In this document: in pieces, positions 29,166-58,592 of the stretch
Position numbering within the stretch: the first letter of the stretch is position 1
Layout: every line of letters begins with the position of its first letter
Assembly: GCF_014654205.1 (NCBI RefSeq)
Contig: NZ_BNAW01000003.1
Coordinates: forward strand, 124,001-188,000
Origin: Amycolatopsis bullii
GTDB lineage: Bacteria > Actinomycetota > Actinomycetes > Mycobacteriales > Pseudonocardiaceae
Length of the DNA stretch: 64,000 nt
Direction: 5' to 3'
Made by a program: the position numbers and the translations under genes
The notes under the pieces: generated by a model
The model's database searches: none
What the model was told of the DNA's origin: nothing
Seen by the model: only the letters and a program-made list of their open reading frames with translations

Positions 29166-29762
29166 GTGCCGGGATACAAGTACGATCTGTTCATCAGTTA
29201 CAGCCGCCACGGAACTGCACGGAATTGGCTGCTGAACCACTTCTATCCACGGCTCGCGGAGTGCCTGGTCGACGAGATCGCACCTGCGCCGAAGATCTTT
29301 CTCGACAAGGACATGCCGCGTGCCGTGCACTGGCCTGCGCAGCTCGAGAGCGCACTGCACCACACCAAGATCATGGTTGCCGTCCTGTCGGCGCCCTACT
29401 GGGAATCTCCGTGGTGCATGGCTGAATGGGGCAGCATGGAGGCGCGCGAGCAGCTGCTCGGGCTCGTCAGTCTCGAGCGTCCGCAGGGACTGATCTATCC
29501 TATTCGCTTCGCGGACTCGCACAGACTCGAGAACGAAGGCCGTCTTCGGTCGTGGTGGGACTTCAAAGGTCTTGACAACCCGGACAGAGGTTTTCAGGAA
29601 AGCCGGGACTGGCATTCTTTCCAGCAAAAAGTTAGACAATGTGCGCAGGATCTCGCCGAACTGCTGAGTCAGGTGCCACCCTGGCGGCCCGACTGGCCGG
29701 TCATCGAGCGACCTGATCCCGTCCTGTCGCCGCCTCCTCCGCTCCCGAGGTTCGACTCATGA
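29166..29762 (+). CDS. TIR-domain protein, first gene of a four-gene operon
   Basis: 198 residues, almost entirely one TIR domain. Beta-A reads YDLFISYSRHGTARNW, the BB-loop region KIFLDKDMPRAVHW follows, then VAVLSAPYWESPWCMAEWGSM, where the glutamate of WCMAEW is at the position of the catalytic Glu of NAD-cleaving TIRs. A proline-rich tail ends the protein. Bacterial TIR effectors hydrolyse or cyclise NAD when a partner senses infection. GTG 29166 is the start used; no strong ribosome site precedes it. The 96-bp upstream spacer has three T5 tracts (29079, 29090, 29119), unusual for this genome. Its stop overlaps the ATPase start (ATGA). Confidence 0.85.
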   Translation: MPGYKYDLFISYSRHGTARNWLLNHFYPRLAECLVDEIAPAPKIFLDKDMPRAVHWPAQLESALHHTKIMVAVLSAPYWESPWCMAEWGSMEAREQLLGLVSLERPQGLIYPIRFADSHRLENEGRLRSWWDFKGLDNPDRGFQESRDWHSFQQKVRQCAQDLAELLSQVPPWRPDWPVIERPDPVLSPPPPLPRFDS

Positions 29763-31384
29763 CGGGGACTGTCGTCACCTTCTACTCCTACAAGGGCGGT
29801 GTCGGGCGTAGCTTCACGCTGGCCAACGTCGCTGTGTTGCTGGCCCGGTGGGGTTACCGTGTGCTCACCATCGATTGGGATCTCGAAGCGCCTGGCCTTC
29901 ATCACTACTACGGACCGTTGATGAGTAAGGCGCCCAAGGGCGGGGTGATCGATCTCGCAGCCGACTTCCTCACCGGCGCGGCAGAACCGAGGCAGCATGC
30001 CATCCGACTCGCACTCCCGGAGCAAGGCACGGTGTCACTGCTGGCCGCCGGTAAGCAGGACGTGTCCTACACCGGTCGGGTGCAGGACATCGACTGGGAG
30101 GACCTGTATCGACGAGGGTTTGCGGCCTTTCTGGAGCGCTGCCGGGCGGAGTGGACGGAGAACTACGACTTCGTCCTGATCGACAGCCGAACGGGCATTT
30201 CCGACATCGGTGGCATCTGCACCGCGCATCTGCCTGACCGACTCGTGGTCCTGTTCACGGCCAACCAGCAGAGCGTCGAGGGAGTCGTGAACATCGCCCA
30301 GCGAGCCGATGCCGCCCGCGACCGGATGCCTTACGACCGTCCGCCACACCTCGTGCTCCCGGTCCTCTCGCGGTTGGACAACCGTGTGGAGTACGAGCGA
30401 GCCGAGGGGTGGCAGCACCGGTGCGCGGAGCTCACTGCACCCCTGTACCGGAACTGGCTCGCGAAAAGTGTGACGCAGGAGCAGATGCTGCGTCACACCA
30501 CGGTGCCCTACGTGTCGTACTGGAGTTTCGGTGAGCATCTCCCGGTGACGGAAGAGCTCACCCCGTCCGCGGACCAGATCTCGTATGCGTTGGAGTCCAT
30601 TGCCGCGGTCATCGCGCAGCAGTTTGACCGCACGGCCCTGTTCGCGGACAACCGAGACGCCTACGTGGCTGCTGCCCGTACCCAACGGCAGTCGTACCGC
30701 CTGGACCTGCTGGTGTCGATCTCCCGGCCGGAGCCACCGATCGCGACCGAACTCATCAACGAGCTGGTGGATCTCAAGTTGCAGGTCGAGCGGTCTGTGT
30801 CCACCGATCCGGAGTTCTTCGACCACGGTAGCGACCCGGCGAAACACCTCTGCCTGGTCATCGACGGCGAGGTGAGCCGCTGGCAGGCTACCGAGGCGGA
30901 ACGGTTCTTGCGGCACGCCCTGGACGCCGACAGCGACCGCCGGCTGTTTTGCGTGCTGACTCGTCGGACCGACCCGGAGAAGCTGCCTGCGTTCCTGCGC
31001 AACCTGCGGCTCTTCCGGCTGGACGCGAACACGCGGCCTCGCCAGGTAGCCCGTCAGCTGCACGAAGTCATCATCGACGCGCCAGCCGGCCGGACCGATT
31101 CCGGTCACGTCGCACTGCAGGACGCCGCTGCGGCGTTGCGCAAGGTTCCGGTGGAACTGTCCCGGGAAGGACGCTGGGCGATCGTCGAGCAGACCGTGAT
31201 CGACATGGCCACCGCGCTCGATGACAACGACATGGCGTTGCTCAAGGAGCTGACGGCGGACCTCGATCTGCTGAACGAAGTCCGCGTGACCGGGAGCCGG
31301 GTCACCACCCCAGACGGCCTGCGCGAGCATATCGACGCATTGCTGGCCCGGATCGATCGCCGTATCACCGTGTTCACCGACTGA
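29759..31384 (+). CDS. ParA/MinD-like ATPase with KGGVGR P-loop and TIR-like C-terminus
   Basis: 541 residues. The N-terminal SIMIBI ATPase starts VVTFYSYKGGVGRSFTLANV: the deviant Walker A lysine is present but the usual GKT/S reads GRS, a variant known in actinobacterial conflict-type ATPases. VLTIDWDLEAPGLHHYY and DFVLIDSRTGISDIGGI complete the nucleotide site. From about residue 315, LDLLVSISRPEPP, then HLCLVIDGEVSRWQATEAERFL and RRLFCVLTRRTDPEKLPAFLRNLRLFRLD, read like a degenerate TIR domain lacking the N-terminal YS motif. It is translationally coupled to the TIR gene. It could gate or localise the TIR effector; this is inference. Confidence 0.82.
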   Translation: MTGTVVTFYSYKGGVGRSFTLANVAVLLARWGYRVLTIDWDLEAPGLHHYYGPLMSKAPKGGVIDLAADFLTGAAEPRQHAIRLALPEQGTVSLLAAGKQDVSYTGRVQDIDWEDLYRRGFAAFLERCRAEWTENYDFVLIDSRTGISDIGGICTAHLPDRLVVLFTANQQSVEGVVNIAQRADAARDRMPYDRPPHLVLPVLSRLDNRVEYERAEGWQHRCAELTAPLYRNWLAKSVTQEQMLRHTTVPYVSYWSFGEHLPVTEELTPSADQISYALESIAAVIAQQFDRTALFADNRDAYVAAARTQRQSYRLDLLVSISRPEPPIATELINELVDLKLQVERSVSTDPEFFDHGSDPAKHLCLVIDGEVSRWQATEAERFLRHALDADSDRRLFCVLTRRTDPEKLPAFLRNLRLFRLDANTRPRQVARQLHEVIIDAPAGRTDSGHVALQDAAAALRKVPVELSREGRWAIVEQTVIDMATALDDNDMALLKELTADLDLLNEVRVTGSRVTTPDGLREHIDALLARIDRRITVFTD

Positions 31385-31394
31385 GGGAGTGGGA

Positions 31395-32006
31395 ATGGCG
31401 GAAAAGTACGGAAGCCACGAGCGGGCAGCACTGTTCGTGTTGCTGCTGGCCGACGACGAGATCAACAACAGAGATCTGAAGGACCGGCACGGCATCACGC
31501 TGAGCAAGGACGGCCGTGAGAAGCTCAACAAGGCCCGTCTGCTCGATACCGATACGGACAAGCGCCCGTACGTGCATCGGATCACCGAAGCGGGCCGTGC
31601 GTGGTGTGAGCAGGCACTGACGGAGATCGAACCCCCACCCAGGCCCAACCCGCTCGTGCGGGCGGGATTCGAGTTGCTGCGGTTCTTCGCCCGTTACGCG
31701 CAGGAGCACAAGATTCCGCTGGCCGCGGTGATCGGGACCGTTCCGGGCCTGGAGTCACTGATCCGGAAGGCTTACCGGGATCTGTCCGACCGGCCGGGTG
31801 AGCACGTACGGCTGGCTCAACTCCGCCCCAAACTCAACGGAGCAGACAAGGACGAGGTGGATCAGATGCTGGTGGAAATGCTCAAGACCGGCCTCGTCGA
31901 CCTCGCACCGGACTCCGACCGACGGGGACTCACCGATGCCGACCGTGCCGCGGCCATTCGCATCGGTATGGAGGACAAACACTTCGTGGCGATCGAGGAA
32001 TCATGA
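31395..32006 (+). CDS. Winged-helix-like protein of the TIR operon
   Basis: 203 residues from ATG 31395, preceded by GGGAG. I recognise no named family. The N-terminal 75 residues (HERAALFVLLLADDEINNRD, the Lys-rich GITLSKDGREKLNKARLL, and RPYVHRITEAGRAWCEQAL) look like a winged helix with a C-terminal wing strand. The remainder is helical, with HVRLAQLRPKLNGADKDEVDQMLVEMLKTGLVDL resembling a second winged-helix unit. It could be a DNA- or complex-binding adaptor between the ATPases. It lies 10 bp after the ParA-like gene and overlaps the HerA-like gene by 4 bp. Confidence 0.6.
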   Translation: MAEKYGSHERAALFVLLLADDEINNRDLKDRHGITLSKDGREKLNKARLLDTDTDKRPYVHRITEAGRAWCEQALTEIEPPPRPNPLVRAGFELLRFFARYAQEHKIPLAAVIGTVPGLESLIRKAYRDLSDRPGEHVRLAQLRPKLNGADKDEVDQMLVEMLKTGLVDLAPDSDRRGLTDADRAAAIRIGMEDKHFVAIEES

Positions 32007-35000
32007 CCGAGGAACAGCAACGGCAGGCACTCGCCGCCGTCCGGTTCAACTTCGCCGAAACTCCGGACGACGTCTGGGGCGCTTCGCCCTTCCACGTGGA
32101 TGGATTGCAGACAAGGGCCGAACACCGGATACGCGCCGGCATCCTCGACGCGAAGAACAGCAGTGGCCCGAACCCGGTTGGGCTCACACTGAAAGGGCAG
32201 AAGGGTGTGGGCAAGACCCATGTGCTGGGCCGGGTCAGGCGGATGGTGCAGGATGTGGGCGGCTACTTCTTCCTGATCGACCTCACCACGGGTCCCGCCT
32301 TCTGGGACGACGTCCTACGGGCCATGCGCGGCGAGCTGTGGCGCAAGGGTGATGACGGCGAACTCCAGCTGGCCAACCTGCTGCAGCGGTTGTGTGACAG
32401 GGCCGACGTGCCCGAGCCGGTGGCCAAGGTCGTCCTCGGCCGCGCTCCGCTCACCGTCGACAATCTCGACAGTTTCGTCGGTGCTCTGCGCCGAATCGAC
32501 CCTCTTGTCGCGGTGGAGTGCGCGGACACTGTTCGTGCACTGGTGCTCTACGCGGCCGATGACGAGAACCAGATCGTCGTCGGTAAGGACTATCTCGCGG
32601 GCATGCCGGAGGCCAAAAACGGTCAACGTCGTTCCTGGGGGCTGCACACGGAGGCGAAACCACAGCGCGAACTCGCCACGGAGATCTCGCGGGTGCTTGC
32701 GCTCACCGGGCCGAGTGTCGCTGCGATCGATCAGCTCGACTCGTTGATCGCCAGAGCGGGCAACGGGGCATCGACGGACCAGAGCGGGGAACTCGCGGCC
32801 ATCGCCGACGGTCTGATGCAGCTGCGTGAGACGACACGACGAACTTTGTCCATCGTTGCCACCTTGCCCAACACCTGGAGCCTTCTGCGAAAGGTAGCCA
32901 CCGATTCGTTCGATGACCGGTTCACCGAGACACCGGTCCTCAAGGCCATCGTCGACCCGCAGCTCGGCCGGGCACTTGTCCAGAAGTGGCTCGGCGTGCT
33001 GTACGCGAACATCGGCTTCGACCCACCGCACCCGACTTGGCCGATAGCGCCGGCGGCGTTCGAAGGCGCGTGGAGCGGCGCCTACAGCCCGCGGCAACTG
33101 CTCCGACGCGTCCACGAGCACGCGGAAGCCTGCCTTCTTGGGGAGATCCGCGAACTGTCGTCGTTCAGCGAACCCGTCGAACTACCGCACGAGCCGGTCT
33201 CGGAACCCAACTACCTCGCAGCGTTCGACCAACAGTTCAGCGAGTTGCGGCAGAACGCCGATGTCGATACCGCCATGAGCAAGAACCACGTGGATCAGGT
33301 CATGCCGGGGCTCGTCCAGGCTGCGTTGCGCTCGTGGATCACCGAGGTCGGCAACGACGACCGCTCCTGGGAAACCGAAGGCCTGGACGGCGGCGGCGAT
33401 CTGCACGCCGGTCTTCGCCGGACGGTGGACGAGGAACGTGATCTTTGGGAGCGTTGGGTGTTCCGTGCCATCCCGCCCCAGCACGGTAACCGCACGTTGC
33501 GGCAGATGCGTGCCGCCAGGTCGGCCGCAGGGGTCAGGAAAGGAATGGACAACCGGCACTTGGTATTGATCCACGACGGACCAAGGGGCTGGACCGGCGG
33601 CACGACCATATCGGAGTACACGGCACTCGAAGCGTTGGGCAGTCCACGCGTGGAGATCAGCAAGGACGACATCCGGACGTTCTGGGCGCTCAGCCAGATG
33701 CTCACCAAGCAGAGCTACGAACTCCTCAACTGGCTGGTCGCCCGCAAGCCGGCGAGCAAGACGGAGCTGCTGAAGAAGATCCTCCCCGATCCCGGCCAGA
33801 CCCGCAGCAACCAGCGGGAAACCCGCCCCCCACCGGAAAGGGCCCAGGCCAAGCCGGAAGCCGGTCCAGGCGAGTTCACCCTCGGCGTCGACGGCGAGAT
33901 CCGCATCGAGCTCGAGTCCCTCCGCAAGCACGCCGTGATCTTCGCCGGGTCGGGTACCGGAAAAACCGTCCTCCTCCGCCGCATCGTCGAAGAGTGCGCG
34001 CTGCGGGGCGTCTCCGCCATCGTCCTGGACCCCAACAACGACCTCGCCCGGCTCGGTGATCCCTGGCCGCAACCGCCCGAAGGGTGGCGGCCCGGTGACG
34101 CGGACGCCGCTACCGATTACCTGGGTGGGACCGAGGTTGTCGTCTGGACACCCGGGCGGGCTGCCGGGCGGCCGCTGAGTTTCCACCCGTTGCCCGACTT
34201 CGCCGGCGTTCGCGACGACGAAGACGAGTTCGCCGCGGCGGTCGAAGCCGCCGTGGCGCGGCTGATTCCGCACGCACGAGTGAGCGGCGGGGCCAAGGCC
34301 GCGGTGAGGGGCCAGGCCGTCCTGCGGGAGGCGCTCACCCACTACGCGCGGAAGGAGTCGCGCAGCCTCTCCGGGTTCGTCGACATGCTCGCCGAGCTGC
34401 CGATGGGCGTCAGCAAGCTCACCACCGGCACCAAGACCGCCGCCGATCTGGCCGAGACGCTGCGGGCCGCGATGGTCAACGATCCGCTGCTCGGGGGCTC
34501 CGGGGAACCCGCCGATCCTGCCGGACTGCTCACGCCGTCGCCCGGAAAGCGGGCGCGGATCTCGGTGATCAGCTTCGTCGGGCTGCCGTCCGACGAGCAG
34601 CGGCAGGGGTTCGTCAGCCAGCTCCAGCTGGAGGTGTTCGCCTGGATCAAGCGCAACCCGGCGGCCGATCGCCCGCTCGGCGGGCTGTTCGTCATGGACG
34701 AAGCCCAGACGATCGCTCCGTCGGGTGGCTGGACGGCCAGCACCCAGAGCACCATCATGCTAGCCTCGCAGGCCCGCAAGTACGGCCTCGGCCTGCTGCT
34801 GGCCACCCAGGCACCGAAGGGCCTGCACAACCAGATCACCGGAAACGCGACAACACAGTTCTTCGGCCGCCTGAACAGCCCGGCACAGATCGCCGCGGCG
34901 AACGACATGGCCAGGGCCAAGGGCAGCACCGTCGGGGACATTTCGCGGCTGGAACGCGGGCAGTTCTACGTCACCAGCGAGTCGTTCGGGTTCCGCGCCA

Positions 35001-35086
35001 TGCGCGCGCCGCTGTGCCTGAGCCACCACCCACCCAGCCCGTTGCGGCTCGAAGAAGTGCTCGACCGGGCCCGCAACGGCCGTTGA
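32003..35086 (+). CDS. Two-ATPase protein: N-terminal P-loop domain fused to HerA-like translocase
   Basis: 1,027 residues. The N-terminal ATPase has Walker A in LKGQKGVGKTHVLGRV (about 57-72) and a likely Walker B in SVAAIDQLDSL (about 235). A proline/charged linker lies near 593-625. The C-terminal part is HerA/FtsK-like: VIFAGSGTGKTVLLRRI (about 645-661), LDPNNDLARLG, GLFVMDEAQTIAPSGG (about 895), then SQARKYGLGLLLATQAPKGLHNQI and FFGRLNSPAQIAAANDM. HerA-type proteins form hexameric DNA pumps and occur in several defence systems with nuclease or NADase partners. The G+C content rises sharply within the gene near 33,850. It is the probable sensor or motor of the TIR operon. Confidence 0.85.
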   Translation: MTEEQQRQALAAVRFNFAETPDDVWGASPFHVDGLQTRAEHRIRAGILDAKNSSGPNPVGLTLKGQKGVGKTHVLGRVRRMVQDVGGYFFLIDLTTGPAFWDDVLRAMRGELWRKGDDGELQLANLLQRLCDRADVPEPVAKVVLGRAPLTVDNLDSFVGALRRIDPLVAVECADTVRALVLYAADDENQIVVGKDYLAGMPEAKNGQRRSWGLHTEAKPQRELATEISRVLALTGPSVAAIDQLDSLIARAGNGASTDQSGELAAIADGLMQLRETTRRTLSIVATLPNTWSLLRKVATDSFDDRFTETPVLKAIVDPQLGRALVQKWLGVLYANIGFDPPHPTWPIAPAAFEGAWSGAYSPRQLLRRVHEHAEACLLGEIRELSSFSEPVELPHEPVSEPNYLAAFDQQFSELRQNADVDTAMSKNHVDQVMPGLVQAALRSWITEVGNDDRSWETEGLDGGGDLHAGLRRTVDEERDLWERWVFRAIPPQHGNRTLRQMRAARSAAGVRKGMDNRHLVLIHDGPRGWTGGTTISEYTALEALGSPRVEISKDDIRTFWALSQMLTKQSYELLNWLVARKPASKTELLKKILPDPGQTRSNQRETRPPPERAQAKPEAGPGEFTLGVDGEIRIELESLRKHAVIFAGSGTGKTVLLRRIVEECALRGVSAIVLDPNNDLARLGDPWPQPPEGWRPGDADAATDYLGGTEVVVWTPGRAAGRPLSFHPLPDFAGVRDDEDEFAAAVEAAVARLIPHARVSGGAKAAVRGQAVLREALTHYARKESRSLSGFVDMLAELPMGVSKLTTGTKTAADLAETLRAAMVNDPLLGGSGEPADPAGLLTPSPGKRARISVISFVGLPSDEQRQGFVSQLQLEVFAWIKRNPAADRPLGGLFVMDEAQTIAPSGGWTASTQSTIMLASQARKYGLGLLLATQAPKGLHNQITGNATTQFFGRLNSPAQIAAANDMARAKGSTVGDISRLERGQFYVTSESFGFRAMRAPLCLSHHPPSPLRLEEVLDRARNGR

Positions 35087-35088
35087 AC

Positions 35089-35127
35089 CACGAAGGCCGC
35101 GTTCCGAGGGGGAACGCGGCCTTCGTG
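35089..35127 (+). terminator. Strong hairpin terminator of the TIR operon
   Basis: Two perfect 17-base arms, CACGAAGGCCGCGTTCC and its complement, flank the loop GAGGG, beginning three bases after the HerA-like stop codon. There is no U tract, as usual for actinobacterial terminators. It closes the four-gene operon and separates it from the secreted-peptide gene. Confidence 0.88.
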
Positions 35128-35262: not shown

Positions 35263-35439
35263 ATGTTCAAAAAGCTGGCCAAAATCGGTGGTCCGGTGCT
35301 CGCCCTCTGCATCGTTGCGGCGGCCCCGCTGATCGGCTCCTCGGCGGCGCTCGCGGACGGCGACGGCGGCAGCATGCCCGCGGCGACCAGCACGGCCCCG
35401 CCGCCGGCGACCACCGACGGCAACCCCTGGCACGGGTGA
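35263..35439 (+). CDS. Small secreted peptide
   Basis: 58 codons from ATG 35263, with a near-perfect AAGGAGG at 35249. The sequence MFKKLAKIGGPVLALCIVAA begins a classical Sec signal peptide, with likely cleavage after ALA at about residue 31. That leaves a mature peptide of roughly 27 residues rich in Gly, Ala, Thr and Pro (MPAATSTAPPPATTDGNPW). There are no cysteines or recognisable modification motif in the mature part. It lies 100 bp upstream of the XRE/TPR regulator in the same direction, an arrangement compatible with a peptide signal and its intracellular regulator. Function is unknown. Confidence 0.7.
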   Translation: MFKKLAKIGGPVLALCIVAAAPLIGSSAALADGDGGSMPAATSTAPPPATTDGNPWHG

Positions 35440-47521: not shown

Positions 47522-48268
47522 TCAGTGGGCGAGTAGCTGCGGCATCTCGTCCCAGAGTCGGCCGTCGAGTTCGCGGCCGCCTGCCTTCGGTGTGCGACCT
47601 CCCCACTGCTTGTGGAAGAAGGCGACCTCTGCCTGCTGGCAGCGGTCGCGGATGCCTCGTACCCACGCAGGGTCGACGGGACGTGCCCGGGGACCGGACT
47701 CGCCGCCGGTGATCACCCAATCGGTACCGTCCAGTTCGAGCCCGTCCAGTGGTCCCAGCAGCGGCTCGCAAGACAGGAACCGCACCGCCGCCGGTACGTC
47801 GCGCAGGTCATCGACCCGGCCAAGCTGTGAGGCGTTCTCCACGCTGACGCCGATCCACAGGTTCGCCGGCCACGAGAGCTGATCGGCCAGCCGCCGCAGG
47901 CGCGTCGAGCGTTTGGTCAAGACCTGGTAAGTGTGCTGCGGGGTGGTCGCGATGACCTCGAACACGTCCCGCACGAATGCTGTCGGCACCTTGGCGTGGA
48001 ACAGGTCGCTCATCGAGTTGACGAACACCACCCGCGGCGTGCGCCAACGCCGCGGCAGATCCAGCGCGTCCGGGTGGACCGTCACGCCGAAGCCCGGGCC
48101 GGAGGTCCGCGGGTCACCGTCGTTCTGGTACTTCGGCGTGCCCATGGCTTTCAGCCGCTTGGCCAGCGTGAGGGCGTAGCAGTTGTCGCAACCGGCCGAT
48201 ACCTGGTCGCAACCTGTCGTCGGGTTCCAGGTGACTTCCGTCCACTCGATCGCCGACTTGCCGCTCAT
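47522..48268 (-). CDS. Phage Gp37/Gp68-family (DUF5131) three-Cys-motif protein
   Basis: 248 residues from ATG 48268 with AGGAG six bases upstream; a longer reading to 48,349 has no support. The motif TTGCDQVSAGCDNCYALTLA (C-x6-C-x2-C) is the three-Cys motif after which TcmP is named, and it recalls a radical-SAM-like cluster site. SAIEWTEVTWNPTTGC at the N-terminus, VFVNSMSDLFHAKVP, WIGVSVENASQLGRVDDLR and WVITGGESGPRARPVDPAWV follow the family. It occurs in phages and mobile DNA with TcmP. The reaction is not established to my knowledge; a nucleic-acid modification is plausible. Confidence 0.9.
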   Translation of the reverse strand: MSGKSAIEWTEVTWNPTTGCDQVSAGCDNCYALTLAKRLKAMGTPKYQNDGDPRTSGPGFGVTVHPDALDLPRRWRTPRVVFVNSMSDLFHAKVPTAFVRDVFEVIATTPQHTYQVLTKRSTRLRRLADQLSWPANLWIGVSVENASQLGRVDDLRDVPAAVRFLSCEPLLGPLDGLELDGTDWVITGGESGPRARPVDPAWVRGIRDRCQQAEVAFFHKQWGGRTPKAGGRELDGRLWDEMPQLLAH

Positions 48269-48315
48269 CGTCACTCCTGCTCGCGCACCGCTCATCGCCC
48301 CTCGCCCAAGAAACT

Positions 48316-48332
48316 TTACGCGATATCCGTAA
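48316..48332. promoter_or_regulatory. Inverted repeat between the Gp37/Gp68 and HTH genes
   Basis: TTACGCGATATCCGTAA has 5-base arms TTACG/CGTAA around CGATATC. It lies in the 88-bp divergent spacer, 24 bp upstream of the HTH start and 47 bp upstream of the Gp37/Gp68 start. A probable operator for the adjacent HTH protein. Confidence 0.5.
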
Positions 48333-48356
48333 CGAGGAACCTGTAACATCTAGTTC

Positions 48357-48737
48357 GTGACCGAGATGGATGCGGAACGGCTGCGTCAGGTCTCCCAGCA
48401 CGCGTTCGGACAGCGGTACCGCCTCGAGCTGATGTTGGCGATCGCCAGCACCGACGACGGCATCGTCTGCCTCACCGACCTGGCAAAGACCCTCGAGATC
48501 ACGATCAGCAACCTGCAGAGCCCGCTGCGTGCCCTGGTCAACACTGGACTGATCAGCCCGCTACCCCGCGGCGACTCACGCCGGAAGTTCTACATCCGCA
48601 ACCCGAGCGCCGCATGGGCCTGGGCTCAGGAACTCAGCGAGCACGGGCAACGCGACGCCCTGACGACCCCATCGAGTCCTGCCGATGCAGGATCGGCGGG
48701 TAACGACGTCATGTCACCTGGAAGCGACGTCCCGTAA
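48357..48737 (+). CDS. ArsR-like winged-helix regulator
   Basis: 126 residues from GTG 48357. The winged helix at about 15-90 reads FGQRYRLELMLAIASTDDGIVCLTDLAKTL, recognition helix EITISNLQSPLRALVNTGLI and wing SPLPRGDSRRKFYIRNPSAAW. The tail is Ser/Pro-rich and disordered. It is divergent from the Gp37/Gp68 gene and co-directional with a broken TcmP copy, so it probably regulates the three-Cys-motif genes. No metal-binding cysteine pair of the ArsR sensor type is present. Confidence 0.78.
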   Translation: MTEMDAERLRQVSQHAFGQRYRLELMLAIASTDDGIVCLTDLAKTLEITISNLQSPLRALVNTGLISPLPRGDSRRKFYIRNPSAAWAWAQELSEHGQRDALTTPSSPADAGSAGNDVMSPGSDVP

Positions 48738-48768
48738 CACATGTGGCGGTGTCGGCGACTCTTGATCT

Positions 48769-48960
48769 ATGCCGACGTCCAGGTCCGCTGAACTCCAGCT
48801 GTGGGACCGTCCGCCGCACACAGCCGCGAAGCACAGTCTGCTTCGCGCCTACCTCGGCGCCTGGTTCCCCATCATCGCCAAGTACAACCGGCGCGTCATC
48901 TACTACGACGCCTTCGCCGGCCCAGGCGAATACAGCAACGGCAACCCCCGGTACTCAGGT
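48769..48960 (+). pseudogene. Truncated second TcmP gene (N-terminal 64 codons)
   Basis: ATG 48769 begins 64 codons of good TcmP N-terminus: QLWDRPPHTAAKHSLLRAYL, then YNRRVIYYDAFAGPGEYSNG, the SAM-site motif. After RYSG the frame runs on into unrelated, compositionally different sequence with no TcmP features. The remainder of the gene has been lost by deletion or insertion. It is a different sequence from the TcmP at 46,347, so this is a second homologue rather than a tandem copy. Confidence 0.8.
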
Positions 48961-49735
48961 TGGAGCTGTGTGGAAGGAGCTGGTCGCCGGGGCAGGTCCA
49001 GCAGGTCACGTCACGTTGCCGGTGCCACTGCCGCATGTCGGCGGGGCCGACCTCCGCCGCCTGCGGTCGGGTTGCGTGGCGGCGCAGCGTTCTCATCGGA
49101 CGAGTTTGTCGATATGGTAGTTGCCGGTGCGGCCGCGATGATCTGCGACGAGGTCGGTGAGCATGCTGCCGTAGTGGTCGCTGCGCAGGATGTCTTCCAC
49201 GATTACGTGGAGGCTGTGATCGAGGGCGTTGCGGGCCACGGGCTGGCCGGTGTTGGTGGAGGGCATCCTCAGCGCGGCTTCCTACCGTCCGGCCCTGCGT
49301 GAGCTGAGGTCCGCACCGCGGGCGGCCCTCGTCTACTTTTCTGCAGGTCGAGCTGGCTGCGACTTTCGCGCCCTATGCCACCAGACCCGAGGCCGAGGAG
49401 TTCACGATCACCGATATGGCTTCGTGATTCGAGCCGGACGACCGGCTGGACGTACCTGGGGAGATCGTGATTCCGCAGTCCTCCAGCCTGGTCGACACCG
49501 TCGACCGCACTTGCTGCGACGCGCGCCTCGCGCCCGTTGGCGACGAACCCGTGATTGCCGCGCTTGGATTCGCCTCCTAGCTGCGTATGCGAAGGCGATG
49601 CTCGCGAGCAAGCTTCAAACCTCAGTGGACTCTCCCGCACGCTCCTGTGGTACTGGGACCTGCACAAGTTGCGCGGACGTTGGGACCTTCGGGTGCGGAC
49701 TTCGCTAGGATCTCCTTGTCCGACGTTGACACAGT
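48961..49735. other. Scrambled stretch of gene remnants
   Basis: No intact larger gene is found. A plus-strand frame around 49,326-49,580 reads VELAATFAPYATRPEAEEF, then a TGA, then FEPDDRLDVPGEIVIPQSSS and VGDEPVIAALGFAS, which looks like protein sequence broken by a stop. On the minus strand there is one coherent 57-codon frame. The segment has the look of successive insertions and deletions in mobile DNA. I could not identify the source families. Confidence 0.5.
49093..49266 (-). CDS. Possible 57-residue protein or gene remnant
   Basis: ATG 49266 with GAGG just upstream opens a frame reading MPSTNTGQPVARNALDHSLH, VIVEDILRSDHYGSMLTDLV, ADHRGRTGNYHIDKLVR. The composition looks like a real helical protein and differs from the disordered shadows around it. 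It may be a small intact gene or the tail of a larger decayed one. No family was recognised. Confidence 0.35.
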   Translation of the reverse strand: MPSTNTGQPVARNALDHSLHVIVEDILRSDHYGSMLTDLVADHRGRTGNYHIDKLVR

Positions 49736-50506
49736 TTGGTAGACCTCGCTGCCTATGAACGGGACGACAGGCATCGAATTGGTCACCTTGCCCAGGACGT
49801 CCGAAATGCCCTCATTGACGACGGAGTTCGCGTGCCGCACGACGAGCTTAATCGGGTGGTGCGAGTTCTGGCACAGCTAGCTTGGCGTGACGTCCGCCAC
49901 AAAAGAGCTCGACGACGGGCGAGGTTAAGCACGGCGATTAGGCGGCAACTTTGGTATTTGGTTGAACCTATTCCGCGTTGCTATCTCTGCGGCTATAAAT
50001 TCGCGGACGGCGCACGAGATCGTTTCCTGGGTCGGCCTATCGGTTCCCGCGTTCCTCTGCCCGTGTTAGTAGACTTCGTGCGCCCGCGTGGACTAAAGCA
50101 GCGACATCTATCGATTGAGATCGATCACGTTACTCCGGTCGCTGGAGGTGGTTCAAACGACGTAGACAATCTCCGCCTTGCCTGCGGTTGGTGCAATCAA
50201 GTAAAGAGCCGTTATGCAAGCCTCTACGATGTTGCGACCTGGCCGGCGAGACACGTTGATCACCCAAGCCTTGGTTGGATGACCTTGCCGCAACCATTCT
50301 GGGTGCTGCGCATTGTCAGCATGCGAGGGCGGTGTGAACACCCGGACGGGTGTAGCGCCAGACTAGCGACAGATGAGTTGTTCGCGGCTCCAGCCCGAGC
50401 ACGTGGAACGCTCAACCCAGTTAATGTACGCGTGTATTGTCACGAACATGACCCGTGGTCAATCGATCGCTTGGTAAGTCCAGCGCTCCTGGAAGTGCGC
50501 GTCTGA
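49736..50506 (+). CDS. HNH endonuclease beside the dnd genes
   Basis: 256 residues from TTG 49736, the only start in this part of the frame. The C-terminal half has an HNH/zinc-ribbon unit: RCYLCGYKFADGARD (first CxxC), IEIDHVTPVAGGGSNDVDNL (D-H and N of the beta-beta-alpha metal site) and LACGWCNQVKSRY (second CxxC), with a further CxxHxDxC-like segment (GRCEHPDGCSARL). The N-terminal 90 residues are helical and unassigned; no sulfur-binding (SBD) or SRA domain is evident. HNH nucleases linked to DNA phosphorothioation cut modified or unmodified DNA. A link to dndA, which is convergent with it, is inferred from position. Confidence 0.8.
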   Translation: MVDLAAYERDDRHRIGHLAQDVRNALIDDGVRVPHDELNRVVRVLAQLAWRDVRHKRARRRARLSTAIRRQLWYLVEPIPRCYLCGYKFADGARDRFLGRPIGSRVPLPVLVDFVRPRGLKQRHLSIEIDHVTPVAGGGSNDVDNLRLACGWCNQVKSRYASLYDVATWPARHVDHPSLGWMTLPQPFWVLRIVSMRGRCEHPDGCSARLATDELFAAPARARGTLNPVNVRVYCHEHDPWSIDRLVSPALLEVRV

Positions 50507-50643
50507 ATAGGTCTCGGTCGAGTGGATTGAATCCGCCTCGTCTCGGTGAGCAAACTTCCCGATATGCAGGAACGGGTGGTCGATGCATGAAGATAAATCT
50601 AGTAGTGAATAGGGGATAGTTGAGTGTCACATCAGTTGATCAG

Positions 50644-51795
50644 CTAACGGATTGCGGCGATACGACCACGGATGTCGTCCCAGTCTGTGGCTTGTGTCAT
50701 GTGACTCCAGGAGATCCGCAGTGCTCCTTGGAGTCGGTCAGGGCTAAGCGCCATCGCGGCCAGGACATGACTCGGCTCGTAGCTGTGTGACGTGCAAGCT
50801 GAGCCGTTGGAGATAGCGGCGGCTCCCTTGAGCGACAGCATGACGGCTTCAGAGTCGAGACCTGGGATGGAGACGTTCACAGTGTGTGCCACTGTGCGGT
50901 CCAGGTCGCCGTTGAATTCGGCACCCAGGTCCTGGAACGTGGAGATCACGTCTCGCTGGTACCGAAGGCAGGCGTCCTGTCGCCGTCGGTGGTTGGCCGT
51001 GGCGAGCTGCGCTGCGGTGCCGAGGCCTGCGATGAGGGCGACGGGCAGGGTGCCGGGTCGGAGGCCGCGTTCTTGGCCGCCACCGTAGGTGAGAGGTGTC
51101 AGTGGTGGTCGTTTGTAGCCTCGTCGCCTGGTGATGAGCGTTCCGATGCCCTTGGGTGCGTAGATCTTGTGTCCTGAGACGCTGATGAGGTCGATGCGAG
51201 GGTCCTTGAGCTCGGGCTGTTCTTTCCCGAACCCTTGTGCGGCGTCGACATGTAGGTAGGCATCGTGGTCGCGGAGCTGGTCGACGATGTCGCTGAGCGG
51301 CTGCCGCACTCCGGTTTCGTTGTTGACGTGCATGATCGATACCACGAGCGTGTCGGGTGTGACGGCTGCTGCTACGGCGTCTGGATCGACCCAGCCACCT
51401 GAAGTTGGCGGTACGTAGACTACGTCGAAGCCTCTTTTCTGCAGCTCCTCGACCGGCTCGAGGACGGCTTTGTGCTCGATCTGTGTGGTGACGATGCGTC
51501 GTCGTCCGGTCTTGTCGCCGTGCTGTGCCAGGCCGAGCAGTGCGATGTTGTTGCCCTCAGTGGCACCGCTGGTGAAGATCACCTCATCAGGTTGCGCATC
51601 GACGACCGCGGCAACCTGTTCGCGGGCCCGCTGAACTCTACTCTTGGCCGTCTGGCCGTACTCGTGGGTTCGGCTGCCGGCGTTGCCATACTCAACGGAG
51701 AGGTAGTGCATGACCTCGTCTAGCACTGCCGGCTCCACTGGCGTTGTGGCGTTGGAGTCCAGGTAGACAGCTCGCTCTGCATCTTCGCTGGTCAC
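50644..51795 (-). CDS. dndA: Cysteine desulfurase DndA
   Basis: 383 residues from GTG 51795 with GAGGGA upstream; a 31-residue extension to 51,888 is Cys-rich noise. It is a NifS/IscS-type PLP enzyme: VYLDSNATTPVEPAVLDEVM, FTSGATEGNNIALLGLAQ, the PLP lysine in LISVSGHKIYAPKGIGTL, and the catalytic cysteine in AAISNGSACTSHSYEPSHVL. It removes sulfur from cysteine and passes it to DndC for insertion of phosphorothioate into DNA. As in Streptomyces lividans, dndA is divergent from dndBCDE across a 160-bp control region. Confidence 0.95.
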   Translation of the reverse strand: MTSEDAERAVYLDSNATTPVEPAVLDEVMHYLSVEYGNAGSRTHEYGQTAKSRVQRAREQVAAVVDAQPDEVIFTSGATEGNNIALLGLAQHGDKTGRRRIVTTQIEHKAVLEPVEELQKRGFDVVYVPPTSGGWVDPDAVAAAVTPDTLVVSIMHVNNETGVRQPLSDIVDQLRDHDAYLHVDAAQGFGKEQPELKDPRIDLISVSGHKIYAPKGIGTLITRRRGYKRPPLTPLTYGGGQERGLRPGTLPVALIAGLGTAAQLATANHRRRQDACLRYQRDVISTFQDLGAEFNGDLDRTVAHTVNVSIPGLDSEAVMLSLKGAAAISNGSACTSHSYEPSHVLAAMALSPDRLQGALRISWSHMTQATDWDDIRGRIAAIR

Positions 51796-51853
51796 GACAT
51801 CCCTCGGCTGTTGGTCCGGTGTGGCTACCGATCTTGTCGGTGGGCAACGGTAG

Positions 51854-51929
51854 TGTACGCAACCACAGGCTGCGGTGTTCGTAGCCACGCCGTTGCCTGT
51901 GCGGACCTTTGAATGTCAGCTTGCGTACA
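51854..51929. promoter_or_regulatory. Divergent dndA/dndB control region with 9-base inverted repeat
   Basis: TGTACGCAA at 51854-51862 and its exact complement TTGCGTACA at 51921-51929 face each other 58 bp apart between the dndA and dndB starts. Each copy lies 27-59 bp from one start codon, the distance expected of a repressor site over each promoter. This could be the binding site of a DndR/SBD-type regulator. No regulator gene is adjacent. Confidence 0.5.
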
Positions 51930-51955
51930 GATCGGAGGGGAGGTACAGATTGATC

Positions 51956-53110
51956 ATGTCGACCGTCGCGGACGAACGTCCCGTCAAGGAGTCGCGACAT
52001 CCCGTCGTGGCTCGCCCGGATGTCTTCGAGTACGTGTTCCCCGCCATTCGCGGCGTACAAGCGCAACGTCACTTCTACGTGACGATGTTCCCCCTCCGCC
52101 TTGTGCCACGTCTCTTTCTCTTCGATGAAGAGGAACTACAGGCGAATTTGCGGGCTCAGCGCAGCCTCAATAAGGCGCGCGTCCCCGAGATGGCTCGCTA
52201 TATTCTCGATAACCCTCATAACTATGTGTTCTCTGCGCTGACTGCCTCTGTCGACGCCGATATTCGATTCGACCCACTTGGTGCAGGCGGCGCGGAGGGT
52301 CGCATAGGACTTCTCGCGATACCGATGTCGGCGCGTTTTGTTATCAATGACGGGCAGCACCGTCGCGCGGCAATTGAACAAGCTTTGCGCGAGAATCCAG
52401 ATATGGGTGATGAAAGTATCCCAATCGTCCTGTTTCTGGATATCGGTCTGGAACGCTGCCAGCAGATGTTTACCGACCTCAACAGGTACGCTATCCGTCC
52501 GTCGCGCACTTTGACGATTCTGTACGATCATCGCGAAAATGGCGCCCGCATCGTCAAGAATATTGTCAAAAGCTCGGCTCTGTGGGCGGATCTCATCGAG
52601 ATGGAGCGCAACAATCTTTCGGCCCGATCCCGAAAGCTGTTCACGCTCTCGGCTCTCCACGGTGCTACCAAAGCACTCCTTGATTCAGTTGAGGAGTTGA
52701 CCGTTGATGATGCTGCGAAACTTGCGCGCAACTATTGGGATCTCGTCGCCGAGAAGGTGACTGAGTGGCAGCTAGTTCACGAGAAGAAGGTGACAGCTGG
52801 AGATGTCCGGCGTGACTTCATCCACAGTCACGGGATCGCTCTTCATGCACTAGGGAAAGTCGGCAACACGCTGCTGCGCGAGTCGCGCGATTCACGAAAA
52901 TGGCGTCGTTCCCTGGCGTCGCTGGCGACGATCGACTGGTCGCGCGCGAACTCACAACTCTGGGAAGGCCGGGCTCTTATCGGCGGCAAAGTGTCCAAGT
53001 CGAGCACAAACGTTACTCTCACGACAAACGTGATCAAGAAAACACTGGGCATTCAGCTCTCCCCTGAGGAGATGCGCATCGAGACGATGTACGAACGAGG
53101 GCGATCATGA
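51956..53110 (+). CDS. dndB: DNA phosphorothioation regulator DndB
   Basis: 384 residues from ATG 51956; TTG 51950 sits at a better distance from GGGGAGG and is possible. The DGQHR motif is intact in FVINDGQHRRAAIEQALREN (about residue 130), followed by PIVLFLDIGLERCQQMFTDLNRYAIRPSRTL, as in DndB and related DGQHR proteins. DndB is dispensable for modification; it modulates site choice and restrains transcription of the operon. The gene is low in G+C (a hand count of one 60-base line at 52,201 gives 50%). It overlaps dndC by four bases. Confidence 0.93.
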   Translation: MSTVADERPVKESRHPVVARPDVFEYVFPAIRGVQAQRHFYVTMFPLRLVPRLFLFDEEELQANLRAQRSLNKARVPEMARYILDNPHNYVFSALTASVDADIRFDPLGAGGAEGRIGLLAIPMSARFVINDGQHRRAAIEQALRENPDMGDESIPIVLFLDIGLERCQQMFTDLNRYAIRPSRTLTILYDHRENGARIVKNIVKSSALWADLIEMERNNLSARSRKLFTLSALHGATKALLDSVEELTVDDAAKLARNYWDLVAEKVTEWQLVHEKKVTAGDVRRDFIHSHGIALHALGKVGNTLLRESRDSRKWRRSLASLATIDWSRANSQLWEGRALIGGKVSKSSTNVTLTTNVIKKTLGIQLSPEEMRIETMYERGRS

Positions 53111-54654
53111 GCAAGCCGAAGACAACCAGGGACTCAGCCTTTGCCGACGGCGGCCTGTCGGCCACGCTCGACCGGCTGATCATCGAGGTGCAGGAGCTGT
53201 ACCTGGCTGATCGCATTCCGTGGGTTGTTGGCTACAGCGGTGGCAAGGATTCCACCGCGACACTGCAGCTGGTCTGGATGGCTCTGGAGAAGCTTCAGCC
53301 TGAGCAGCGGACCAAGCAGGTGCACGTGATCAGCACGGATACGCTGGTCGAGAACCCAGTGGTCGCCGCCTGGGTTGGTCACTCCCTGGACCTGATCGGC
53401 GATACTGCCACCAAGCACGGGCTACCGATCGAGCCGCATCGGCTGACGCCGCAGATCACCGATACGTTCTGGGTCAACCTGATCGGACGCGGCTACCCGG
53501 CCCCACGCCCCAAGTTCCGGTGGTGCACCGAGCGGCTCAAGATCAATCCGTCGAACGATTTCATCCGCCGCATGGTGCGTAAGCACGGTGAAGCGATCCT
53601 GGTATTGGGCACACGCAAGGCGGAAAGTTCGGGTCGCGCGTCACGAATGAACTCTCTGGAGCAACGACGCGTCCGGGACCGGCTGAGCCCGAACTCCAAT
53701 CTCCCGAACTCGCTGGTCTACAGCCCGGTCGAGAACTGGACCAACGATGACGTGTGGCTCTTCCTGATGCAACGCCCCAATCCATGGGGCTACAACAACA
53801 AAGACTTGCTGACGATGTACCAGGGCGCTTCGTCGGACGGCGAGTGCCCGCTGGTAGTCGACACGACGACTCCCAGCTGCGGAGACAGCCGGTTCGGATG
53901 CTGGACATGCACCCTCGTCGACAAGGACAAGTCGATGTCGGCCATGATCCAGAACGACGAGGAGAAGGAGTGGATGCGCCCGCTCCTGGACATCCGCGAC
54001 GATCTGGACAAGACCGATGATCGGGACCGGCGCGACTTCCGGCGGATGAACGGCACTGTCCAACTGTTCCATGACCAGCCGATCCACGGACCCTACCTGC
54101 AGCGGTGGCGAGAAGCGTGGCTGAAGAAGCTGCTCGAGGCTCAGACCTACATTCGGCGGGAGGGGCCCAGCAACGTCGCGAACATCGAGCTCATCACGCC
54201 GGCGGAGTTGGACGAGATCCGTCGCATCTGGGTGGTCGAAAAGCATGAGTTCGAAGACTCATTACCGCAGATTTACGAGGACGCGGTGGGTGAGCCGTAC
54301 CCGGGCAAGCCGATGGACGACCATCTCCCCCTTGGAGCTGAGGATGTTCGTCTTCTTCGGGAGATCGTTGGCGACGACACCGACTCGCCGCACTTCGAGC
54401 TGGTGCGAGAGCTGCTGGACATTGAGCAGCGGCACCGAGCGATGTCCCGGCGCGCGGGGCTGTTCGATGCGCTACAGGCGGCGTTGCGTAAAGGGTTCTA
54501 CGACGATCGAGAGGACGCGGTCGATCGTGCGCGGACCCATCGTCGGCGCAAGGAACAGGGGAAGGACGGGATCGACCAGGCTACAGAGGATCTCATTGAC
54601 CTCGAAACCGGCCTCATCCGCTTGATCCCCATTGAGAGCAGCCGCGTGTCATGA
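53107..54654 (+). CDS. dndC: DNA sulfur-insertion protein DndC (PAPS-reductase-like)
   Basis: 515 residues. The PP-loop is WVVGYSGGKDSTATLQLVWM (about 36-55), followed by VHVISTDTLVENPVVAAWV. KFRWCTERLKINP and GEAILVLGTRKAESSGRASRM are typical PAPS-reductase-like elements. Cysteines likely to hold the 4Fe-4S cluster lie in ECPLVV, PSCGDSRFGCWTCTLVDKDK. DndC uses ATP to activate the DNA backbone and accepts sulfur from DndA. The C-terminus from about 430 is charged and helical. It overlaps dndB and dndD by four bases each. Confidence 0.96.
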   Translation: MSKPKTTRDSAFADGGLSATLDRLIIEVQELYLADRIPWVVGYSGGKDSTATLQLVWMALEKLQPEQRTKQVHVISTDTLVENPVVAAWVGHSLDLIGDTATKHGLPIEPHRLTPQITDTFWVNLIGRGYPAPRPKFRWCTERLKINPSNDFIRRMVRKHGEAILVLGTRKAESSGRASRMNSLEQRRVRDRLSPNSNLPNSLVYSPVENWTNDDVWLFLMQRPNPWGYNNKDLLTMYQGASSDGECPLVVDTTTPSCGDSRFGCWTCTLVDKDKSMSAMIQNDEEKEWMRPLLDIRDDLDKTDDRDRRDFRRMNGTVQLFHDQPIHGPYLQRWREAWLKKLLEAQTYIRREGPSNVANIELITPAELDEIRRIWVVEKHEFEDSLPQIYEDAVGEPYPGKPMDDHLPLGAEDVRLLREIVGDDTDSPHFELVRELLDIEQRHRAMSRRAGLFDALQAALRKGFYDDREDAVDRARTHRRRKEQGKDGIDQATEDLIDLETGLIRLIPIESSRVS

Positions 54655-56627
54655 TCTTCGACGAACTCGTACTTCACAACGTCGGCGTGTTCGGCGGTCG
54701 CCACAGCTTCACACTCACCCCACCGACGCCGAGCAAGCCGGTCACCTTGATCGGTGCTCTCAACGGTGGCGGCAAAACCACCTTCCTGGACGCGATTCAG
54801 CTGGCACTGTTCGGACAGCTGGCACGGACGACGAGTCGCGGCAACGGTAGTTACCAGCAGTACTTGCGTCGGCTGATCCACAACGGAGTGCCACCGGAAG
54901 ACGGCGCCTCGATTGAACTTGCTTTTCACATCGTCGAGCAGGGCCAGGACCGCCACTATCGGGTATGCCGTTCCTGGGCCGGAACCAGCACCGGCGCGAA
55001 GGAACGTCTGGACGTCCTCGTGGACGACCGACCTGACATCACTCTGTCGCGACAGTGGGCTGAACGGGTCGACGCGTTCGTGCCACGCGGCGTCGCAGAA
55101 CTGTTCTTCTTCGACGGGGAGAAGATCGAGACGTTGGCGGAGCTGGACAACGCTCGCGAAGTGCTGCGCACCGCGATCGGTGCTCTGCTTGGGCTTGACC
55201 TGGTCGATCGCCTTGCAGCCGACCTAACTGTGGTCGAGCGCAATCACAAGGCCGACCATGCCACGCCGGCGATGCAGAAGCTCCTGGATGTCGAGCGTAA
55301 GAAGCTCGCGACCTACCGTCAGGACAGGGAACGTGCGAAAGACCGCGTCGCCGAGGCACAAGGCGCCCACGATCGAGCCGAGAAGGTGCTCCACGATCTC
55401 GAGGTGAAGATTCAGCTTGAAGGCGGCGAGCTCCTCGACCGAAGTCGGGAACTGGAAGCAGCCAAGCTGCACTTGACCGCGTCCAAGAAAGACCTCGACA
55501 CACGGCTGACCGACCTCGCTGCAGGGGCCCTCCCGCTTCAGCTGGTCCGGGACCAGTTGGAGACCCTCGCCGACCACGCGGATGTCGAACTCGAACGCAT
55601 CCACCTGCACGACATTGCCGATCTGCTCAAGTCCCGTGATCGGGCGACCATTCAGCAGCTACGACAGCACAACGTGCCTGACACTGTGGTTCAAGCCTTG
55701 CAACGTTCCCTCACTGAAGACCGCAGAACGCGGCGCGGGAGCCCCCAGCGAGCGCGCATCACTGATCTCGATCGTGATGGCCTCGCAGCGTTGCGGCAAC
55801 TACTCGAATCTGGGCTTGACCGGGAGATCCACGCAGCCCAGAGCCTGATCGAGCAACGTCAGGCGGTGGAGAACCAGGTTGAAAACATCCTTCGCGGGCT
55901 TGCGAACGTGCCGTCTGAGGAGGCCCTCGACGACCTGCACAAGCGTCGAAACGACGCTCACCGCGCAGTCGCCGCAGCTGCCCAGGCGCTCACGCATGCT
56001 GAAGCGGAAGTAGCTGCCGCGTCTGCCGCTGAGGAAGAGATGGAGCGCAAGCTAAGCCGGCTCCTCGACAAGGCTGCCGACGAGATGACCGCGGCCGACG
56101 ACTCCCGTCGCCTGATCGAACACAGCCAACGCGTGCGGGCGACACTCACGAAATTCCGCCACGAAGCAACTCGTCGCAACGTGGACCGGATTCAGAAACT
56201 CATCCTGGAGTCGCTGCAACGCTTGGCGCGGAAGAATCGGCTGATCACCGACATCAGCATCGACCCCGAGACCTTCAGCGTTGAGCTTCATGGCCAAGAC
56301 GGTACGGTCCTGCTGCCGCAGCAACTCTCCGCCGGTGAACGTCAGCTCCTCGCGGTGTCCATGCTCTGGGGCCTCGCGCAGGCATCAGGTCGCCCGCTAC
56401 CCGTAGTAATCGACACGCCGCTAGGCCGGTTGGACGGTATCCACCGCAGTCACCTGATCGAACGATACTTTCCCCAAGCCAGCCATCAAGTCATCCTGCT
56501 GTCCACCGACCAGGAAATCGACGAAGCAGCATGGAACAAGCTCCGTAAGCATGTCGGCCACACCTACCAGCTTGAACATGACACGAACAGCGGCGTGACG
56601 ACCGCCAAGACCGGATACCTCTGGTAG
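54651..56627 (+). CDS. dndD: DNA phosphorothioation ATPase DndD (SMC-like)
   Basis: 658 residues. Walker A is LIGALNGGGKTTFLDAIQLA (about 30-49). A long coiled coil occupies about 190-500, with the dimer hinge around 330. The signature motif LSAGERQLLAVSMLWGLAQ and Walker B PLPVVIDTPLGRLDGIHRSH follow, then a D-loop/H-loop ending ILLSTDQEID. No CxxC zinc hook is present. DndD provides the ATP-driven DNA handling step with DndC and DndE. A 15-bp gap separates it from dndE. Confidence 0.95.
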   Translation: MIFDELVLHNVGVFGGRHSFTLTPPTPSKPVTLIGALNGGGKTTFLDAIQLALFGQLARTTSRGNGSYQQYLRRLIHNGVPPEDGASIELAFHIVEQGQDRHYRVCRSWAGTSTGAKERLDVLVDDRPDITLSRQWAERVDAFVPRGVAELFFFDGEKIETLAELDNAREVLRTAIGALLGLDLVDRLAADLTVVERNHKADHATPAMQKLLDVERKKLATYRQDRERAKDRVAEAQGAHDRAEKVLHDLEVKIQLEGGELLDRSRELEAAKLHLTASKKDLDTRLTDLAAGALPLQLVRDQLETLADHADVELERIHLHDIADLLKSRDRATIQQLRQHNVPDTVVQALQRSLTEDRRTRRGSPQRARITDLDRDGLAALRQLLESGLDREIHAAQSLIEQRQAVENQVENILRGLANVPSEEALDDLHKRRNDAHRAVAAAAQALTHAEAEVAAASAAEEEMERKLSRLLDKAADEMTAADDSRRLIEHSQRVRATLTKFRHEATRRNVDRIQKLILESLQRLARKNRLITDISIDPETFSVELHGQDGTVLLPQQLSAGERQLLAVSMLWGLAQASGRPLPVVIDTPLGRLDGIHRSHLIERYFPQASHQVILLSTDQEIDEAAWNKLRKHVGHTYQLEHDTNSGVTTAKTGYLW

Positions 56628-56642
56628 AAGACGGAACCCACG

Positions 56643-57032
56643 ATGCCACTCGAGAACATCCGCGTCAGCCGACAAGCACGCGACCAGCTCATCACCCTCA
56701 AACGCCGCACCGGCATCACCCAATGGAACACGCTCTGCCGATGGGCATTCTGTCGCTCACTCGCCGAGCCAACCCCACCCCCCGCGGCCAAACACCCCGC
56801 CGACAGCAACGTCGAGATGACCTGGCGCACCTTCGCCGGCCAGCACGGAGACCTGTACTGGTCACTTCTCCGGCAACGCTGCCACGCTGACGGACTGGCC
56901 CTCGACGAGGAGACCCTCGCGCAGCAATTCCGTGTCCATCTCCACCGCGGGATCGGTTACCTCGTCGGCGACCGCAACATGCGCACGATCACCGACCTGA
57001 TCGATTACGCGGTCGACCCCACCGCCGCATGA
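56643..57032 (+). CDS. dndE: DNA sulfur modification protein DndE
   Basis: 129 residues. The N-terminal LENIRVSRQARDQLITLKRRTGITQWNTLCRWAFCRSL is the conserved ribbon-helix-helix-like part of DndE. The C-terminal WRTFAGQHGDLYWSLLRQRC, FRVHLHRGIGYLVGDRNM is also typical. DndE binds nicked double-stranded DNA and completes the DndCDE modification complex. The stop codon overlaps the start of the associated methyltransferase gene. Confidence 0.95.
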   Translation: MPLENIRVSRQARDQLITLKRRTGITQWNTLCRWAFCRSLAEPTPPPAAKHPADSNVEMTWRTFAGQHGDLYWSLLRQRCHADGLALDEETLAQQFRVHLHRGIGYLVGDRNMRTITDLIDYAVDPTAA

Positions 57033-58474: not shown

Positions 58475-58592
58475 CGCCAAAGCGGGCATCCCTCGCTTCC
58501 GTATGGTCGCAGACGAAAATCGTCAGCAGCCCGGAGTCGGGCAGCGGCACGAACTCGTAAGCACCACTGCCCACTCGACGGCATCTTGTTGG

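Follow-up and report, generated by a model that had tools for sequence, protein, structure and literature searches.

A TIR, KGGVGR-ATPase, winged-helix-like and AAA+-HerA operon of Amycolatopsis bullii as a probable antiphage system of the HerA/FtsK capture type

The DNA analysed here is a stretch of 64,000 nucleotides from Amycolatopsis bullii (contig NZ_BNAW01000003.1, positions 124,001 to 188,000), called the window below, and our subject is an operon of four genes within it (Table 1). The genes encode a stand-alone TIR-domain protein, an ATPase with the motif KGGVGR (KGG), a winged-helix-like (WH) protein and an AAA+ ATPase fused to a HerA/FtsK DNA translocase (the HerA protein). As the initial annotation had read them, they are co-directional: the TIR/KGGVGR and WH/HerA junctions are ATGA overlaps, and a 10-bp gap stands ahead of the WH gene. 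The WH start was placed at the ATG at 31395, which is backed by homologues; the list of open reading frames (ORFs) begins 6 bp upstream at a GTG. The closing hairpin was also located, its perfect 17-bp arms (35089-35105 and 35111-35127, with a 5-base loop) being found again as exact matches. The 61 nt from 35080 to 35140 fold with -38.9 kcal/mol (z = -5.3), far beyond shuffled sequences (equalled by 0 of 200), and no T run follows. The G+C content was 0.61-0.66 across 29-34 kb and 0.71 across 34-35 kb, against 0.68-0.77 in the left flank (1-29 kb) and 0.69-0.75 in the right one (35-42 kb). The claim of a G+C content below that of the flanks holds for the near flanks; beyond 42 kb on the right, the values fall again (0.57-0.67).

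Table 1: Features of the operon and of its surroundings, in window positions.
Feature	Position	Strand	Remarks
TIR-domain protein gene	29166..29762	+	GTG start, 198 aa, proposed NADase effector
KGGVGR ATPase gene	29759..31384	+	541 aa; ParA/MinD fold - probable second TIR - CATASP
Probable second TIR inside KGGVGR protein	30674..31078	+	residues 306-440; W375-Q376-x-x-E379
CATASP (CATRA-associated small protein) domain	31121..31354	+	residues 455-532; PF20271 30.9 bits, cut-off 29
Winged-helix-like (WH) gene	31395..32006	+	core partner of HerA
AAA+ ATPase fused to HerA/FtsK DNA translocase	32003..35086	+	1027 aa
N-terminal AAA+	32003..33202	+	Walker A GQKGVGKTH; Walker B-like DQLD
Linker domain, possibly inactive restriction-endonuclease fold (by eye)	33206..33802	+	AlphaFold element order
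HerA/FtsK motor domain	33860..35083	+	structure and PADLOC matches
Hairpin closing operon	35089..35127	+	17-bp arms
Phosphorothioate island	47525-63454		DndA/SspA-like, DndB, DndC, DndD, PbeC, PbeA (PLD-helicase)

The stand-alone TIR protein matched Pfam TIR_2 (4.1e-11) and has the hallmark of TIR NADases, a conserved glutamate in the WCxxE helix. This catalytic-type residue, E87 of WCMAE (29424-29426), was invariant in 29/29 aligned rows, taken from 30 available sequences. When the TIR profile was compared with the PDB, it matched chains named ADP-ribosyl cyclase/cyclic ADP-ribose hydrolase (8.7e-8) and NAD+ hydrolase (1.9e-6). We infer that this protein would be the NAD+-cleaving effector of the operon.

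The ParA part of the KGGVGR protein matched PADLOC PDC-M28B (2.7e-27), and the protein resembles a ParA-like family of PHROGs (3.5e-13). Behind this part lies a probable second TIR domain. The assignment is based on Pfam TIR_2, recognised within the protein in 8 of the 21 aligned members (best 5.6e-8) but not in the window's own copy, and on a WQxxE motif whose W, Q and E (E379, codon 30893-30895) were invariant in all 21; the alignment drew on 30 available sequences. Direct comparison of residues 305-440 with the operon TIR family, profile against profile, was not significant (probability 0.6%, P = 0.1). Three of the 30 column shuffles scored higher, the WC and WQ positions were aligned with each other, and the WH family, serving as control, outscored this region against the operon TIR (1.8%). 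A PDB profile search with the region was empty, and the matches listed from the structure search with the KGGVGR protein were taken up by ParA folds, none bearing on the TIR region. Among other family genomes, G051, G156, G182, G272, G277 and G294 contain a KGG-type N-terminal part of about 400 bits in frames of 783-952 aa with no adjoining WH row; these six long proteins are perhaps a separate KGGVGR lineage.

The WH protein gave only HTH_27 at E 0.022, which is below the cut-off, and no match to the PADLOC models. In the PDB its profile (25 of 40 available sequences aligned) found calmodulins first (E 0.005 and weaker), followed by CRP/FNR regulators (from E 0.037), and both are taken as noise. 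The HerA protein was aligned from 24 of 41 available sequences. In its N-terminal part, AAA_16 and AAA_22 matched in 23/23 members, while ORC-CDC6-like was matched in only 4/23 (best E 0.24) and BrxC_BrxD in 2/23 (best E 0.01); D243 and Q244 of the DQLD motif were invariant in 24/24. The linker domain had no meaningful match among Pfam and PDB sequences. Its AlphaFold order over residues 430-524, read by eye, is helix, three strands, helix, strand. The top structural matches of the motor were HerA, VirB4, DndH-C and SIR2/HerA, with TrwB also matched; its Walker residues were invariant in 24/24. In libraries the HerA part matched PADLOC mad8 (8.5e-20) and resembled a terminase family of PHROGs (3.7e-12). 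The anatomy first proposed, namely a WCxxE TIR, a ParA-like KGGVGR protein, a winged-helix-like protein and an AAA+-HerA, holds. The window's own genome has a second WH gene (L031, C7:202219-202854) followed by a 154-aa HerA ORF that matches only the two ends of HerA and is a broken paralogue.

Linkage of the four genes was analysed in 297 genomes of the window's family, where WH matches (threshold 0.001) were present in 106 genomes and KGG matches (1e-60) in 79. Among the 92 KGG matches there were 84 long ones (747 bits or more), all reaching at least 530 of the 539 profile positions except G170, which covers 456. In 84/84 of these the next gene was WH, on the same strand and at less than 500 bases; the remaining 8 matches extend over no more than some two thirds of the profile, and none adjoins a WH row used in this test. 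This test took in all 92 KGG rows and the WH rows down to 91.7 bits, plus two G278 rows. KGG, WH and HerA adjoin in the 30/30 best WH loci, and WH lies directly upstream of HerA in 86/86 loci, the window being included in both counts. The 86 comprise 6 loci of a phylum search and the 80 best of 475 confirmed relatives, some of them identical with L031-L070; since they are the best-scoring relatives, the 80 lean to close kin. In 40 regions chosen by hand from the WH matches of family genomes, all four genes were found in order in 29. With tblastn we re-found WH in 39 of the 40, and the exception, L069, had itself been retrieved by a WH match. The 4-base WH/HerA overlap was kept in 36/39 regions and the TIR/KGG overlap in 13/29. 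Far from co-occurring rarely, which the initial annotation had named as an outcome that would speak against it, the homologues co-occur strictly and in the predicted order. All four genes are under purifying selection, with a ratio of nonsynonymous to synonymous substitution rates (dN/dS) of 0.07-0.32 in 16/16 gene-pair comparisons. In a phylum-wide draw the core was present at 1e-30 in 6/396 genomes, the window's own among them, and it is therefore uncommon outside the family at this threshold.

The same WH and AAA+-HerA core was also found beside other partners. The neighbours of 60 loci without KGG were clustered, and the classes were defined from these clusters, from gene orders and from family searches, each cluster being named from one or two representatives. 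The classes are a DUF559 nuclease (Pfam; MTES_1575 scored below its cut-off); DUF4365 with a 330-aa protein, which match PADLOC PDC-M02A and PDC-M02B; a divergent WD40 protein, trypsin-like by eye, with Trypco1 (the best 25 of its 43 Pfam rows are all WD40 or propeller); a 700-aa TPR protein; and, downstream of the core, an AIPR protein, which is AbiU in PADLOC. On 113 unique HerA proteins the partners were TIR+KGG in 57, DUF559 in 24, DUF4365/PDC-M02 in 10, trypsin-like in 8, TPR in 4, AIPR in 2 and SEFIR alone in 1, with 7 unassigned. DUF559, WH and HerA also occur together on plasmid records of Tsukamurella and Methylobacterium. In the Tsukamurella tyrosinosolvens record (L157) the three genes and a VapBC pair lie between rpsQ and rplN, an unusual insertion place inside the ribosomal protein gene cluster.

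A quick tree of HerA (LG+G4, with support by SH-aLRT, the SH-like approximate likelihood ratio test, only) was built from 124 rows merged into the 113 unique ones; it omits L031 for its broken HerA, L064 at a contig end, the window (L151) and the short L001-L030. The first partner labels required 18 changes on this tree, against 52 in shuffles, and the number was this high because the gene caller had missed partners. After re-examination of 14 unlabelled rows, six were relabelled by tblastn (L110, L140, L141 and L147 as DUF559, L152 as trypsin-like/Trypco1, and L068 as DUF4365 on an 86-residue match) and L103 by eye as SEFIR. The partner class then changed 7 times, where 6 is the least possible, a count that leaves out the 7 unassigned rows and has no shuffle control. 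Frequent swapping is not supported by this count; with only 7 changes, partner exchange is rare and old, having occurred a few times. The TIR+KGG rows fall in one set of 58 (SH-aLRT 100), whose odd row is L103.

For 56 other unique loci of the TIR type, the whole of each retrieved stretch was scanned for flank genes (threshold 1e-20); because not all stretches are long, the counts are lower bounds. Three genes, one presumably AfsR-like, one TIR-like and, downstream, one of XRE type, were found together in at least 30 of the 56. The TIR-like gene is convergent, about 290 aa long and just downstream of HerA (L071:13116-13982 and other clade-1 loci); its N-terminus is TIR-like by eye, with no Pfam match. 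A divergent bSEFIR gene (PADLOC; SEFIR + NPCBM) was present in at least 19/56 loci, never with the TIR-like gene (for example L108:5901-6869 and other clade-2 loci), and in L103 a similar SEFIR gene, recognised by eye, is left beside WH-HerA. The window keeps the XRE and AfsR-like genes, whereas next to its operon nothing matched the TIR-like gene. Between its hairpin and XRE gene, 35263-35439 encodes a 58-aa peptide that looks secreted by eye. The lower-G+C part of the window contains a Dnd/Pbe phosphorothioate defence island, which starts 12-16 kb downstream of the operon and also has a PDC-M41B/M30B-like protein.

By comparison with described systems, the closest in kind are the HerA-FtsK capture systems (PMC10853773), which consist of an Orc/CDC6 AAA+, an inactive restriction endonuclease inserted after the AAA+ core, an active one, HerA/FtsK and a winged helix-turn-helix (wHTH) protein, TIR being fused to some related Orc/CDC6 proteins. 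The operon shares with them the HerA/FtsK motor, fused here too to an AAA+, and has a small gene that may be wHTH-like; a nuclease partner (DUF559) stands beside 24/113 HerA relatives. It differs in the effector, which in the capture systems is a restriction endonuclease and here is a TIR together with ParA-TIR-CATASP; the active endonuclease usual in them has no counterpart, since no nuclease was found among the four proteins in library searches. HerA, AAA+ and wHTH parts are also shared by the BREX-related capture systems (PMC12839542), and in PMC7159879 MinD/ParA-like domains that are predicted to be inactive are counted with the effector domains, and the Trypco families are described.

Several named systems were considered and rejected. 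The operon TIR is FxsC-like and the KGGVGR protein belongs to the ATPase family NF047398, but the TIR reached only 44.1 bits with the FxsC model, below its equivalog cut-off of 130, and FxsABC was discarded. Thoeris was discarded with a ThcB4 match of 15 bits against a cut-off of 220 and no Thoeris model among the PADLOC matches, and MADS with mad8, in the HerA part, as the only mad model matched. In SIR2-HerA/Nezha a HerA motor is paired with an NAD-consuming effector, and the nearest folds of our motor include SIR2/HerA antiphage complexes; however, none of the four proteins matched SIR2, so membership was rejected, and here HerA has an N-terminal AAA+ and is accompanied by the WH and KGGVGR proteins. 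PADLOC touches single genes of the operon (mad8, HerA, PDC-M28B) and, through PDC-M02A/B, the partner in one set of relatives; a literature search on the names PDC-M02 and PDC-M28 found no paper. The initial annotation could not match the gene set to a named system, and this stands in so far as PADLOC 2023, NCBIfam 2026, Pfam and PHROGs have no model for the set; it does not extend to the core, since systems whose core is almost identical are in print (PMC10853773). The four-gene set was not found in the open literature searched and may be in print elsewhere. The combination is apparently new, though not new in kind.

Taking these results together, the four genes probably form a chromosomal system against phages or other invaders that belongs to the HerA/FtsK capture type and uses a TIR effector. 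What stands beside this core in other clades is mostly of defence type (DUF559, PDC-M02A/B, AbiU, Trypco1 with the trypsin-like WD40 protein). The strict linkage, the invariant TIR glutamate and motor Walker residues, the PDC-M28B match of the KGGVGR protein, the Dnd/Pbe island nearby and the SIR2/HerA complexes among the close folds also speak for this reading. Most likely, the WH protein and the AAA+-HerA ring would engage invading DNA and translocate along it, and this DNA-engaged state would recruit or release the KGGVGR protein, acting as a nucleotide-gated adaptor. Its internal TIR would then nucleate assembly of the stand-alone TIR, and the assembled TIR would cleave NAD+ and stop the infected cell before the invader spreads. 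The initial annotation, with an ATPase-HerA sensor and a ParA-like switch controlling the TIR, was right in anatomy and synteny, and its mechanism of sensor, switch and NAD depletion would fit; it missed the occurrence of the core with other partners as well as the probable second TIR and the CATASP domain in its ParA switch.

Several observations weigh against this defence reading. In the Walker B of the AAA+, Gln replaces the usual Glu. In ParA the Walker lysine stands at the position that is Arg in KGGVGR. Because of these two substitutions, ATP hydrolysis by the AAA+ or the KGGVGR protein is doubtful. The Orc/CDC6 and inactive-nuclease assignments of the HerA protein are tentative. The flanks are stable, with the AfsR-like gene in at least 41/56 loci, the TIR-like gene in at least 32/56 and the XRE gene in at least 31/56; since the TIR-type operon also forms one clade (SH-aLRT 100 in the quick tree), it looks vertically inherited, which is less usual for mobile defence genes. 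HerA had no match in a search of 50,697 phage records and was found in only 3 of 72,556 plasmid records, one of them a record of 11.9 Mb. Among the partners, the TPR protein and the DUF559 nuclease had no PADLOC match.

The stability of the surroundings, with XRE and AfsR-like regulator genes kept across genera, would also fit a resident module for regulatory or developmental cell death, or one policing the transfer of plasmid or integrative and conjugative element (ICE) DNA, instead of phage defence; FtsK/HerA motors serve conjugation too, and the structural matches of our motor include TrwB and VirB4. Such a role is unlikely in our judgement, as the presence of the genes is patchy even in one family (KGG in 79/297 and WH in 106/297 genomes) and the same core bears different partner classes. 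That the four genes are mere neighbours with no joint action is barely credible given the kept overlaps (WH/HerA 36/39, TIR/KGG 13/29), and chance neighbourhood was rejected on the adjacency of KGG with WH (84/84) and of WH with HerA (86/86).

It is also conceivable that the TIR makes a nucleotide signal, as in Thoeris, and does not destroy NAD outright, the receiver being the TIR inside the KGGVGR protein or the accessory TIR-superfamily gene of relatives. The presence of two TIR domains in one operon, the third TIR-superfamily gene beside it in many relatives (bSEFIR in at least 19/56, TIR-like by eye in at least 32/56) and the weak ThcB4 match would agree with this. None of the four proteins, however, matched a domain of SLOG/Macro type, and the TIR-like gene known from relatives has no match beside the window's operon, which is intact all the same; signalling of this kind seems to us unlikely.

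Going beyond the defence reading, we suggest with clear reserve that the operon may belong to a modular family of immune systems that is undescribed so far. Its members would be actinobacterial apart from one on a Methylobacterium plasmid, and in it one WH and AAA+-HerA core would serve at least six partner cassettes. In the TIR type the motor might gate a TIR NADase by heterotypic TIR-TIR contact with the ParA-TIR-CATASP adaptor, as a bacterial counterpart of adaptor-mediated TIR signalling. If this were true, a DNA-translocating motor would be directly tied to NAD-depleting TIR suicide, and PDC-M02, a PDC-M28B relative, the DUF559 nuclease, the trypsin-like WD40 protein and AbiU would be united by one core. 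It would also provide a bacterial case in which one TIR protein is under the control of another TIR that sits on an adaptor. With WH and HerA so constantly paired and so few changes of partner, the idea of the same sensor with a different weapon is directly testable.

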